From Gammaproteobacteria bacterium (GTDB lineage Bacteria; Pseudomonadota; Gammaproteobacteria; Eutrophobiales; Eutrophobiaceae): a stretch of 64,000 nucleotides of DNA. A program made the position numbers and the translations under genes. Position 1 is the stretch's first letter; each line of letters opens with the position of its first letter. The stretch covers positions 124,001 through 188,000 of the forward strand of contig JAJFKL010000030.1 of NCBI GenBank assembly GCA_021773235.1, in the 5' to 3' direction. Below the pieces are notes generated by a model that saw only the letters and a list, made by a program, of their open reading frames with translations, ran no database searches and was not told the DNA's origin. Below are positions 16,577-54,970 of the stretch, piece by piece.

Positions 16577-17296
16577 ATGTTCGCAATAATTCATAAATGG
16601 CATAAAAAATTTGGTGTGTTTGTGGCACTGTTCGTAATCTTTTTAGTGATGAGTGGTATAGCTTTAAACCATAGCCAACAAATGCAGCTCAACAACAATT
16701 ATATCCAAACACAGTGGTTACTTGATCTTTATCAAATCAATCCTGCTAATGAACCAGTAAGCTTTGAAGCTGATGGGATTAGAGTTAGCCAACTTGGCGA
16801 GCGTATCTATTTTGATAAACGAGAGATTGCAAAAGATGTTCAGCAATTGATTGGGCTTGTTAGTACCAACGATGTTGTGACAGTTGCATTTGATGGGCAG
16901 TTATTGTTGCTCACGAAAGATGGCGAGACTATAGAACATCTTACTGGCGTTGAGGGAGTTCCCGCTGGTATGAAAGAGATAGGTTCAGACAGTCGCGGTG
17001 ATATTGTTATAAAAGCAGCGCATGGTTACTACCATGTCAATCTCGATGCGCTTGAATGGAAAGAATACGATTATCTTGAAGCGAGTTGGTTGCTTGCGTC
17101 AGCGATACCTGATGCATTAAACGAAGATCTTTTACATCAATATAGAGGCAGTGGCTTAACCATCGAAAGGGTGTTACTCGATCTTCATAGTGGACGTATC
17201 GTTGGTTCCTGGGGCGTTTATTTTGTCGATTTAATCGCATTATTATTGTTGGTGCTGTCTTGTACCGGCGTATGGATGTGGTGGAAGAGGGTTTAG
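16577..17296 (+). CDS. PepSY-type membrane protein
   Basis: This 239-residue protein has two membrane helices, at about residues 10-30 (after HKWHKKFG) and at 213-235 before a WWKRV end. The periplasmic part between them is about 180 residues. The HxWH start and the ending GVWMWWKR are typical of PepSY-associated membrane proteins, some of which act in ferric-siderophore reduction. It is translationally close to the FMN-binding protein, so the two probably work as an electron-transfer pair across the inner membrane. Confidence 0.78.
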   Translation: MFAIIHKWHKKFGVFVALFVIFLVMSGIALNHSQQMQLNNNYIQTQWLLDLYQINPANEPVSFEADGIRVSQLGERIYFDKREIAKDVQQLIGLVSTNDVVTVAFDGQLLLLTKDGETIEHLTGVEGVPAGMKEIGSDSRGDIVIKAAHGYYHVNLDALEWKEYDYLEASWLLASAIPDALNEDLLHQYRGSGLTIERVLLDLHSGRIVGSWGVYFVDLIALLLLVLSCTGVWMWWKRV

Positions 17297-35044: not shown

Positions 35045-35121
35045 TGGGGTATGGCCAAGTTGGTTAAGGCACATGGTTTTGATCCATGCATTCCGAGGTT
35101 CGAGTCCTCGTACCCCAGCCA
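35045..35121 (+). tRNA. tRNA-Gln (anticodon TTG)
   Basis: The acceptor stem TGGGGTA (35045-35051) pairs with TACCCCA (35111-35117) and the encoded GCCA end follows. The anticodon loop reads TTTTGAT with TTG, and the T arm contains GGTTCGAGTCC. A U-A first base pair is usual for glutamine tRNA. It lies between ispE and prs. Confidence 0.96.
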
Positions 35122-51997: not shown

Positions 51998-52456
51998 ATG
52001 GAATGGTTAGATCAGATTGAATTTTGGCATTGGCTTATTGCCGCGGTAGTGATGATTATTATTGAAATGATCCTTCCCGCCGCATATTTTCTCTGGATGG
52101 GTATCTCAGCGTTTGTTGTTGGTTTGTTAATTTATGCGGTTCCTAGCATGCCCGTATTAATTCAGGTCATTATCTTTGGCGTGTTATCAGTCGTATCTTT
52201 AATTATGTATAAACGACATAAAAAGGCGAATCCAAATGTGAATGATCAACCTAATCTCAATCGACGTGGCGAACAATATGTCGGTCGTAGTTTTACACTT
52301 GAAGAAGCAATAGTGAATGGTATCGGCAAAATCAAGGTTGATGATTCTACTTGGAGAGTTAAAGGTTCAGATATGCCTGCGGGGATGAAAGTGCGTGTGA
52401 TGAGTGTCGAAGGTACGATATTTAATGTAGAAACAGAAACAATGTTTTCTGAATAG
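51998..52456 (+). CDS. NfeD family protein
   Basis: This 152-residue protein has two or three membrane helices and a C-terminal OB-fold domain (about 85-150, RRGEQYVGRSFTLEEAIVNG). It is the short NfeD form lacking a ClpP-like protease. Pairing with qmcA 11 bases upstream is diagnostic. Confidence 0.93.
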   Translation: MEWLDQIEFWHWLIAAVVMIIIEMILPAAYFLWMGISAFVVGLLIYAVPSMPVLIQVIIFGVLSVVSLIMYKRHKKANPNVNDQPNLNRRGEQYVGRSFTLEEAIVNGIGKIKVDDSTWRVKGSDMPAGMKVRVMSVEGTIFNVETETMFSE

Positions 52457-52472
52457 TTAATTAATACTAACT

Positions 52473-53525
52473 TTAAATACATTCATGTTGGGCAAGCGCC
52501 CACGAAACATGTTCACGTACCATTGCCGAGGGATCATTTTCTCTTGCTCTTAAAGCCGTTACAGTTTCATCTGTTGTAGCTGCGTTTCCTAAACCAACCG
52601 CTATATTTCTAGACCAACTTTCATAGCCTATACGCCGAATGGCAGAACCTTCGGTGTTTTTTAAAAATTCTGTCTCTGTCCAGGCAAATAATTCAATTAG
52701 TGTCGGTGCATCCAAACCATTGCGGACGCGGAAATCATCTTCTTCGGTGTTTTTTGCGAATTTATTCCATGGGCATATTAGTTGGCAGTCATCGCAACCA
52801 TAAACACGATTACCAATCATCTTGCGAAATTCCTCGGGGATCGAGCTGCGTAATTCTATCGTTAAATAAGAAATACAACGACGCGCATCGACTTGCATCG
52901 GGCCAACAATCGCTTGAGTTGGGCATATGTCGATACAGGCATTACAGCTTCCGCAATGATGCTCTGTAAAGGGCTTGTCAATTTCGAGCGGTAAATCAGT
53001 ATAAATCTCACCCAGAAAAAACCATGAGCCTGCTTTAGGGTTAATGAGGTTGCTGTGCTTTCCAATCCATCCCAGGCCCGCATTTCGTGCTAATGCTTTT
53101 TCCAGTATTGGTGCGCTATCGACAAAGCAGCGATAACCAAACTGTCCGTATTGTGTCTCTATTTTAGTGGCTAGTTTCTGGATACGCTGACGCATAAGTT
53201 TATGGTAATCACGGCCCATCGCATATCGGGAAACATAAGCCAGTTCCTTATTATTTAATACCTGTGCGGGATGCTTACTAGAGGGTGGCAAGTAATCCAT
53301 TCGCAGTGAAATAACACTGATTGTTCCCGGCACTAGATCGCTTGGACGACTACGCTTGGTGCCATGTCTTTGCATGTACGACATCTCACCGTGACGGCCT
53401 TCTTTTAACCAATTTAAAAGATACGCCTCATCCTCTTCCAGATCAGTCGTTGTGATACCGACTTGTTGGAAGCCAAATTCAGCTCCCCAGGATTTAATAT
53501 GGCCAGATAACTGTGATTTATCCAT
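52473..53525 (-). CDS. queG: Epoxyqueuosine reductase
   Basis: This 350-residue cobalamin- and Fe-S-dependent enzyme makes queuosine in tRNA. Two [4Fe-4S] motifs are CGSCNACIDICPTQ and CDDCQLICPWN. The N-terminal LGWIGKHSNLI and the GYRCFVDSAPILEKALA block match QueG. Length is normal. Confidence 0.96.
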   Translation of the reverse strand: MDKSQLSGHIKSWGAEFGFQQVGITTTDLEEDEAYLLNWLKEGRHGEMSYMQRHGTKRSRPSDLVPGTISVISLRMDYLPPSSKHPAQVLNNKELAYVSRYAMGRDYHKLMRQRIQKLATKIETQYGQFGYRCFVDSAPILEKALARNAGLGWIGKHSNLINPKAGSWFFLGEIYTDLPLEIDKPFTEHHCGSCNACIDICPTQAIVGPMQVDARRCISYLTIELRSSIPEEFRKMIGNRVYGCDDCQLICPWNKFAKNTEEDDFRVRNGLDAPTLIELFAWTETEFLKNTEGSAIRRIGYESWSRNIAVGLGNAATTDETVTALRARENDPSAMVREHVSWALAQHECI

Positions 53526-53667
53526 TGGATATGTAAATAGTATTCAGATTCATAAAAAGATATTGCAATGCATTATATGCGTCCTAAAAGTCACCACCGT
53601 AGTGCAATTCTTAAACATATATAGATTGTTTGCAGGCTAAGTCATTGAATTATATTAAAAACAAATA

Positions 53668-53684
53668 TTGGCACAACACCTGCA
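53668..53684 (+). promoter_or_regulatory. Sigma-54 (RpoN) promoter for a small RNA
   Basis: TTGGCAC at 53668-53674 and CCTGCA at 53679-53684 fit the -24/-12 consensus. GG (53670-53671) and GC (53682-53683) are exactly 12 bases apart. The predicted start is near 53695. The next downstream terminator is only 55 bases from there, so the product is a short RNA. Confidence 0.72.
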
Positions 53685-53694
53685 CTATAGATAG

Positions 53695-53781
53695 TCATAG
53701 AATTTTATATTAGCTTCATCCTCCTCAACAGTTTTGTTGTATTTTTATAGGGCGCCACCCCCTCCGGCGCCCTTTTTTTTT
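53695..53781 (+). ncRNA. Candidate sigma-54-dependent small RNA, about 87 nt
   Basis: This span begins at the predicted RpoN start and ends in a strong terminator; it has no usable open frame. It contains TCCTCCTC (53719-53726), complementary to Shine-Dalgarno sequences, next to a small hairpin CAACA-gttt-TGTTG (53726-53739). The terminator loop ACCCCCTCC is also anti-Shine-Dalgarno-like. Upstream of it to queG and downstream to the permease I see no other gene. I cannot assign it to a known family. Function as an mRNA-pairing RNA is inference. Confidence 0.62.
53750..53781 (+). terminator. Terminator of the sigma-54 sRNA
   Basis: GGGCGCC (53750-53756) and GGCGCCC (53766-53772) form a 7-bp GC stem around ACCCCCTCC, followed by nine T residues on the plus strand. 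No coding gene on this strand lies upstream for over a kilobase (nfeD ends at 52456), so it must serve an RNA. Confidence 0.9.
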
Positions 53782-53890
53782 ACACCATGCATTTTTGTCA
53801 GTAACTTAGATATACGACGCTAGGTAAACTCGCTGTCTAGCGAAGATATCGTTATCATGAATATAATTATCATAAGACTATATTGAAAAG

Positions 53891-54970
53891 ATGTTTGAGT
53901 TTATTAATTCATGGTATCGACGTTACTTTACTGATCCGCAAGCTGCATTACTGGTAGTTTTGCTGGTTATCAGTGCCATCGTCTTGCTGACCATGGGTAA
54001 AATGTTGGCACCGTTGTTGGCAGCCCTGATCATTGCTTATTTACTTGAAGGCGGCGTAGCTAAATTACAAAGAAAAATATCCTCAAGGTTTTTGGCAGTT
54101 AACCTGGTTTATCTTTTATTCGTCGCCTTCATGGTGTTTATTCTATTCGGGCTGTTGCCTCTATTATCAAAGCAGGTCAGTCAATTTTTCCAGGAAGTGC
54201 CGGATATGATCAATAATGGACAAGCTTTGTTATTACAGCTGCCCGGACAATATCCCGAGTTCATATCAGAAGATTATATTAGCCAACTGATCATCACGAT
54301 ACGCCAGGGCTTTAGCGAGCTTGGCGGGAGTGTGCTTTCTATTTCTGTTGCATCTATACCCGCCATTATTACAGTGCTCGTTTATCTGGTACTGGTGCCG
54401 TTGATGATTTTCTTTTTTTTAAAAGACAAGGAGCTCATCATCGATTGGCTAGGTCGTTTCTTGCCGAAAGAGAGACGACTAATAAACGAAATCTGGACGG
54501 AGATGGATGCGCAAATAGGTAATTATGTGCGAGGTAAATTCAACGAGATTATTATTGTTGGCAGTGCTTCGTATATTACCTTTGTTTTATTTGGTCTTAA
54601 TTATGCGCCGCTGTTAGGCTTGATAGTAGGCTTGTCTGTTTTGATTCCATACATTGGCGCGGCAGTAGTGACGTTACCGATCGCTTTTGTTGCCTATTTC
54701 CAATGGGGTTTATCACCAGATTTTGTCTGGTTAATGGTTGCCTATGGTGTTATTCAGTTTCTGGATGGCAATGTTCTAGTGCCGATTCTTTTTTCAGAAG
54801 CCGTTAACTTGCATCCGGTTGCAATCATTGTTGCGATCCTTGTCTTTGGTGGTCTATGGGGTTTCTTGGGTGTGTTCTTTGCTATTCCATTAGCAACGCT
54901 GGTGAAGGCTTTGATCAATGTGTGGCCGACATATGAAAGTGATGATACTACTTTGCAGGGGCAGGTTTAG
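53891..54970 (+). CDS. AI-2E family transporter (PerM-like)
   Basis: This 359-residue inner-membrane protein has about eight helices. The block FVLFGLNYAPLLGLIVGLSVLIPYIGA and the late VAIIVAILVFGGLWGFLGVFFAIPLA are typical of the AI-2E/PerM family. Cargo is unknown. Before the gene a direct repeat TTATCAT occurs twice, at 53852-53858 and 53867-53873, of unknown meaning. Confidence 0.88.
   Translation: MFEFINSWYRRYFTDPQAALLVVLLVISAIVLLTMGKMLAPLLAALIIAYLLEGGVAKLQRKISSRFLAVNLVYLLFVAFMVFILFGLLPLLSKQVSQFFQEVPDMINNGQALLLQLPGQYPEFISEDYISQLIITIRQGFSELGGSVLSISVASIPAIITVLVYLVLVPLMIFFFLKDKELIIDWLGRFLPKERRLINEIWTEMDAQIGNYVRGKFNEIIIVGSASYITFVLFGLNYAPLLGLIVGLSVLIPYIGAAVVTLPIAFVAYFQWGLSPDFVWLMVAYGVIQFLDGNVLVPILFSEAVNLHPVAIIVAILVFGGLWGFLGVFFAIPLATLVKALINVWPTYESDDTTLQGQV

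Follow-up and report, generated by a model that had tools for sequence, protein, structure and literature searches.

The stretch at positions 53668-53781 of the window (the whole 64,000-nucleotide stretch of DNA that was analysed) probably encodes a trans-acting small RNA (sRNA) that would be activated by NtrC, IHF and sigma-54, would probably bind Hfq and would repress mRNAs at their Shine-Dalgarno (SD) regions. This combined reading, drawn from sequence comparison, is held with fair confidence, slightly reduced by the failure to find NtrC in two of the genomes that carry an intact copy. Its best-supported steps are the existence of the putative sRNA gene and its predicted sigma-54 control, both of which are well supported; NtrC is the likely activator, and repression of mRNAs by the predicted RNA is probable.

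The predicted transcription unit divergent from queG

The near-consensus sigma-54 promoter of the original prediction was recovered at full score with correct spacing of its GG and GC elements, and the distance from the putative start to the end of the textbook terminator came to 87 nt, as had been estimated (Table 1). The generic terminator scan did not list this terminator, because its loop of 9 nt exceeds the loop limit of 8 used in that scan. The window contained a single pair of a sigma-54 site scoring at least 0.95 and a terminator within 150 nt, and 60 shuffles produced no such pair. A looser promoter and terminator pattern was found at three places in the source genome, namely at the sRNA gene, at a promoter preceding a gene start and at an sRNA-like gene beside folE2, while the reversed control pattern was found at none.

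Table 1. Positions of the predicted features and neighbouring genes, given in window coordinates except for the folE2-side candidate, which lies on another contig of the source genome.
Feature	Position	Strand	Remarks
Enhancer site I, NtrC-box-like, TGCATTATATGCGTCCT	53569..53585	+	score 8 of 12 in the window
Enhancer site II, NtrC-box-like, GTCACCACCGTAGTGCA	53590..53606	+	score 10 of 12
IHF-like site ATTCAATGACTTA	53638..53650	-	called with the IHF consensus
Predicted sigma-54 promoter TTGGCACAACACCTGCA	53668..53684	+	full score; GG at 53670-71, GC at 53682-83
Predicted small RNA, 87 nt	53695..53781	+	putative start, 12 nt past the promoter GC
C-rich anti-SD segment TCCTCCTC	53719..53726	+	unpaired in the predicted fold except for its last base
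Weak 5-bp hairpin CAACAGTTTTGTTG	53726..53739	+	predicted fold; no covariation support
U-rich run before the terminator, GTTGTATTTTTAT	53736..53748	+	12 of 13 columns invariant among the seven close copies
Predicted intrinsic terminator GGGCGCC-ACCCCCTCC-GGCGCCC-T9	53750..53781	+	7-bp GC stem, 9-nt loop ACCCCCTCC at 53757-53765, nine T
queG	52473..53525	-	TIGR00276; divergent neighbour of the sRNA gene
AI-2E family transporter gene	53891..54970	+	PF01594; downstream neighbour of the sRNA gene
folE2-side sRNA candidate, source genome (L102)	G000:C50:56236-56322	-	promoter and terminator pattern

No credible coding frame was present, in agreement with the original prediction. The two longest frames found in the sRNA copy of the window start with TTG, comprise 16 and 15 codons and continue past the terminator with no stop codon. 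The longer of them was also seen in G003, G009 and G006, where the DNA is nearly identical, and was absent from distant copies; when the two longest frames of each copy were compared, the longest frame in any sRNA copy had 28 codons. The predicted fold of positions 53694-53781 had an energy of -19.2 kcal/mol (z -4.3), to which the terminator contributes much, and folding outside the terminator was predicted to be weak. The two C-rich segments that had been described as single-stranded, TCCTCCTC and the terminator loop, were unpaired in this fold apart from the one base noted in Table 1. The U-rich run before the terminator is a possible candidate for contact with Hfq.

The claim that no upstream plus-strand gene could make use of the terminator also held, as the nearest such gene, an NfeD-like ORF, ends at 52456 and the minus-strand queG lies in between. 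The region had, however, been referred to as downstream of queG, whereas the sRNA gene actually lies 5' of queG and is divergent from it. On its other side, the gene of the AI-2E family transporter follows the terminator after 109 nt in the window and after approximately 265 nt in G009.

Distribution and divergence among relatives

A DNA search of 58 relatives yielded strong matches in seven of the 12 genus genomes, the source genome included, and a degenerate match in G010. The covariance model built from the seven close copies additionally found the copies of G004 and G001, and gave weak matches in other genera that share the neighbours of the sRNA gene. The gene queG was present in 49 of 53 family genomes. 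Its 5' flank was readable at 46 loci, and at least 15 of these, representing six of 18 genera, contained an intact unit of promoter, RNA and terminator (G000, G003, G009, G006, G008, G011, G007, G004, G001, G016, G017, G022, G024, G035 and G034). This number is a lower bound, since the script can miss imperfect terminator stems and 17 of the 46 flanks were judged by script alone; the intact copy of G024 was missed in this way, and it was recognised by eye, as was the decayed copy of G030. The 46 flanks derive from 29 and 17 loci, with G015 left out for its 5' flank of 171 nt and with G023 and G068 lacking a usable flank. Within the genus, nine genomes carried an intact copy and one a decayed copy (G010), and the sRNA was not found in genus genomes G002 and G005; outside the genus, intact copies were present in six genomes of five other genera. 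Lack of conservation in close relatives had been named as evidence that would speak against the original prediction. The promoter, the C-rich motifs and the terminator were kept in nine of the 12 genus genomes, and likewise in the six genomes from the other genera.

Two copies were visibly decaying. In G010 (L015, G010:C171) the promoter, the CCUCC segment and the terminator were damaged and the U-rich run was retained, and in G030 (L082) TTTGCAT replaced TTGGCAT and the terminator was lost. Both genomes retain NtrC, which indicates that the sRNA is dispensable. Of 18 further queG slots that were inspected, G024 had the RNA, G030 a decayed copy and G015 too short a flank. None of the remaining 15 slots contained a unit of sigma-54 promoter and terminator, and three of them (G071, G033 and G060) showed an isolated NtrC-like match with a score of at least 9, indicating that the two-site control arrangement accompanies the RNA and not queG. 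One exact terminator pattern was also searched for in a genome collection of named species; it was found in six contigs, all metagenome-assembled and matching in length the contigs of loci already found, two of which were labelled Thiotrichaceae (UBA973 and UBA7357). Phage records gave no match.

Among the seven close copies, mean pairwise identity was 89.9% for the promoter, 96.0% for GUUGUAUUUUUAU and 93.9% for the terminator; it was 61.5% for the first 24 nt of the RNA and 60.3% for the spacer to the next gene. The CCUCC segment was 63.7% identical, shifted in position and was present as UCUCCC in G008. No compensatory change was observed in the hairpin pairs of these copies. Between genera the body of the RNA was largely rewritten, while the control region kept its layout. 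G001, G016 and G017 carry a GAUAGUC...GACUAUC-type 5' hairpin, and a CUCA(G/C)CAUC segment before the terminator was common to G022, G024, G034 and G035. Six C-rich anti-SD 5-mers occurred 40 times in the seven close transcripts, with 3.6 expected from dinucleotide shuffles, and 29 times in the eight other transcripts, with 11.4 expected. Neither count was reached by any of 1000 dinucleotide shuffles, and the count of 29 was reached by one of 1000 single-base shuffles. CCUCC and CUCCU taken alone gave a count in the eight distant transcripts that was reached by 33 of 1000 shuffles, and both were absent from the transcripts of G016, G017 and G022. As judged from these predicted transcripts, the trait that persists across genera is C/U-rich sequence complementary to SD regions.

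Control region and alternative readings

The layout of the upstream region was kept across copies, with NtrC-box-like sites at approximately -99 and -78, an IHF-like site at approximately -30 and the sigma-54 promoter. The start of site I precedes the promoter element by 97-101 nt. The right half of this site is decayed in the seven close copies, the window included, and in the source genome it begins with GCAT. Site II retains GTGC (-65 to -68) in 14 of 15 copies and has ATGC in G024, and a score of at least 9 of 12 was reached in only nine of the 15. The NtrC box test in the window gave one good site (II) and one weak site (I). All 15 intact copies contained at least one NtrC-box-like site, I or II, scoring at least 9 of 12, with varying strength. 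A match as good as the best site of the source genome (II) arose, at any position, in 0.8% of the shuffled upstream sequences; for the 12 sRNA copies tested, the best upstream site was equalled in 0.6-8.2% of shuffles, and for nine folE2-linked promoters the same test gave 29-99.8%. P-II genes served as the positive control: of their 30 loci, 12 combined a sigma-54 promoter with a pair of NtrC-like boxes spaced 30-31 bp (counted without shuffles). When the sRNA upstream regions were tested for pairs 29-33 bp apart, the values were mixed (0-30% of shuffles), and in most cases the pairs picked were not sites I and II. The IHF-like site, called against the IHF consensus, was found at -29/-30 with at least seven of nine consensus positions in all 16 aligned copies, i.e. 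the 15 intact ones and the decayed copy of G030 (a raw count without shuffles).

Of the 53 family genomes, 45 yielded NtrC, the source genome among them, as did 32 of the 33 good genomes (completeness of at least 90%), so that co-occurrence of the sRNA with NtrC carries little weight. The two genomes with an intact sRNA in which NtrC was not found were G011 (87% complete) and G034 (79%). In the source genome an NtrC gene above the cut-off lies on contig C11 and the sRNA locus with queG and the AI-2E gene on C23. RpoN was found in 10 of the 12 genus genomes, the exceptions being the source assembly (80.9% complete) and G011. For Hfq the figure was 18 of 19 genomes, the source genome included, and the exception was G009 (91% complete). 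In seven genomes, a gene near ntrC (L229-L234, L236) was preceded by a CTGGAACACATATTGCT-type sigma-54 site together with an NtrC-like box 167-179 nt upstream. This gene presumably resembles glutamine synthetase (MKSKLEYIWLDGY...); a Pfam search with 40 of its residues gave no match.

Another NtrC-like activator in place of NtrC is possible, because site I is half-decayed in the close group and sites I and II are spaced 20-22 bp apart, unlike the P-II boxes; this gap in spacing is a real difference. The family genomes moreover encode several NtrC-like activators that score below the cut-off for NtrC. Control of the sigma-54 sRNA by such an enhancer-binding protein, of the carbon, flagellar or quorum type, nevertheless appears rather unlikely. 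Site I is a full GCAC-N7-GTGC in eight of the 15 intact copies, and this is the core of the published E. coli NtrC box TGCACCAnnnTGGTGCA (PMC8743547). Furthermore, G002 (99% complete), the only good genome in which no NtrC above the family cut-off was found, also lacks the sRNA and has no sigma-54 or NtrC sites at its P-II locus (L134, G002:C2:569806-570123), although this is a single case and seven other P-II loci were also empty.

The stretch might also be a leader or attenuator of the AI-2E transporter gene, the terminator stopping sigma-54 transcription unless a signal permits read-through. That gene lies on the same strand directly downstream in 14 of the 15 intact copies, and also in both decayed copies; it was not seen for G034, where 0.9 kb of the locus was covered. 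It is, however, likewise in place at the equivalent locus of G002 and G005, which lack the sRNA with its promoter and terminator and have similar sequence just before the gene, so that the gene seems to have a start of its own. Since the predicted fold also contains no anti-terminator and the RNA body is unconserved between genera, this reading is very improbable. A-rich repeats and GGA repeats are motifs of known decoy RNAs, and neither was seen on reading the sequence. A decoy that titrates a protein without pairing to mRNAs, in the manner of CrcZ for Hfq or the Rsm RNAs for CsrA, would fit a body that is fluid in sequence and keeps its C/U-rich composition, and CrcZ, which is driven by RpoN and IHF, is itself a decoy (PMC8395346); the enriched motif is, however, the complement of the SD sequence, and we consider a decoy improbable. 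A chance arrangement or a dead relic without a transcript would be in line with the decay in G010 and G030, but is extremely improbable in view of the shuffles, none of which joined promoter and terminator, and of a unit that is retained in six genera and whose promoter, U-run and terminator were selectively conserved among close copies.

Proposed mode of action, known systems and companion loci

The preferred reading, an sRNA activated by NtrC, would operate as follows. Under nitrogen limitation, phosphorylated NtrC would bind the two boxes at 53569-53606, IHF would bend the DNA at 53638-53650, and NtrC would activate the sigma-54 polymerase at 53668-53684. The stand-alone gene would yield an untranslated RNA of 87 nt ending at the terminator (53781), with a U-rich stretch and a U tail of the kind typical for Hfq binding. 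Its exposed C-rich segments would then pair with GGAGG in SD regions and shut down translation of the mRNAs. Where the original prediction had offered nitrogen, carbon or another RpoN signal, the enhancer sites favour nitrogen and NtrC.

Start-region searches, by pattern and by duplex energy, named no mRNA targets. A search of the 12 genus genomes for the pattern TTGAGGAGG-N(2-10)-ATG returned 18 matches, spread over nine of them. Two of these were rejected as antisense to the sRNA gene itself, and a match common to four genomes was rejected as it opens merely a 6-codon frame. A groES-like gene, recognised by eye, was likewise discarded, since its match in G003 has a counterpart in G002, a genome without the sRNA. 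Screening the start regions of the collected loci by duplex energy revealed no consistent target, and the strongest match in the window, GTTGAGGGAG at 16969, was set aside as a doubtful internal start.

At the gathering threshold no Rfam family matched the sRNA in the window, the sole match in the window being a tRNA gene at 35045-35118 on the plus strand. At a permissive threshold, positions 53500-53900 gave eight weak matches, the best with an E of 0.24 on the minus strand; alpha-r14 (E 0.36), mmgR (E 0.86) and CcsR1 (E 2.8) were judged to be motif look-alikes. Weak matches only were obtained with the loci of five relatives. A description of this queG-linked RNA was not found in the open literature searched.

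CcsR1, listed in Rfam as conserved CCUCCUCCC motif stress-induced RNA 1, has the same type of C-rich motif by its family name, but membership was rejected at 12.2 bits (cut-off 65.3). Its control in Rhodobacter differs from that of the queG-linked sRNA. In alpha-r14/NfeR1 of rhizobia, which is tied to nitrogen stress, CCUCCUCCC anti-SD motifs are unpaired and the remaining sequence is variable (PMC10746234). The queG-linked sRNA shares the unpaired anti-SD motifs and would work in a similar way without being a member of that family: the alpha-r14 match reached 17.6 bits (cut-off 58.8), and NfeR1 has three hairpins and a sigma-70 promoter, is activated by LsrB and is repressed by NtrC, whereas the queG-linked sRNA has a predicted sigma-54 promoter. 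In type of control, which for the queG-linked sRNA would be NtrC with RpoN, it resembles NrsZ of Pseudomonas aeruginosa, a nitrogen-responsive sRNA made by NtrB/C and RpoN, which appears to act on a 5' UTR structure containing the ribosome-binding site (PMC8395346). NrsZ, however, activates rhlA and lies at an ntrC-linked locus, which was not the case for the 87-nt sRNA between queG and the AI-2E gene; no NrsZ model was among the weak Rfam matches, and Rfam may hold none. CrcZ of Pseudomonas is similar in having an RpoN promoter with a response regulator and IHF (PMC8395346), but is a CbrB-driven, A-rich Hfq decoy of 407 nt. The Qrr RNAs of Vibrio are likewise sigma-54-dependent regulatory RNAs with activators of the NtrC family; they differ in their quorum-sensing input (LuxO), and no Rfam family matched the queG-linked sRNA.

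Downstream of folE2, a second sRNA-like family, composed of sigma-54 promoter, C-rich stretch and terminator, was observed in nine of 28 readable loci and in G019. Its members are those of the source genome, G003, G009, G011, G016, G004, G001, G031, G073 and G019; 28 of 30 folE2 loci were counted, as G010 and G018 lack the downstream flank. The C-rich run formed a hairpin loop in eight of ten predicted folds. Nine upstream regions of this family contained 14 GGCAA repeats, compared with 1.5 in single-base shuffles, and those of the queG-linked family contained one, compared with 1.9. CGGCAA was present in five of the nine regions and absent from G073, and the repeats were approximately 30 bp apart in G004 and G001. 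The enrichment of GGCAA repeats at the folE2-side family and not at the queG-linked one makes a different activator likely for the former. At L244 of G001 (G001:C2, ~557369), two divergent sigma-54 promoters were each followed, within approximately 110 nt, by a near-identical long inverted repeat and a T run. The terminators and an NtrC-like sequence at this locus were judged by eye, and the script found no terminator there; a third sRNA family, arranged as a divergent pair, is possible.

These loci tentatively suggest, though with considerable doubt, that several sigma-54 anti-SD sRNAs may exist in parallel, each with its own enhancer-binding protein: NtrC for the queG-linked family (A), an activator of paired GGCAA repeats for the folE2 family (B) and a divergent NtrC-type pair sharing one terminator in G001 (C). 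Together they would act as quickly evolving global dampers of translation, with control regions conserved and bodies rewritten between genera.

The queG-linked sRNA represents an unlisted, multi-genus family of nitrogen-type sigma-54 sRNAs. The kind is known, and NrsZ, CrcZ, Qrr and alpha-r14/NfeR1 are comparable. Its hosts are a gammaproteobacterial group of which the named members found were all metagenome-assembled, and the covariance model and coordinates are supplied for RNA-seq data from relatives. It offers a clear case in which the enhancer, the IHF-like site and the promoter are kept and the predicted regulated RNA is almost entirely rewritten, so that it becomes testable how sRNA seeds evolve when their regulation stays constant.
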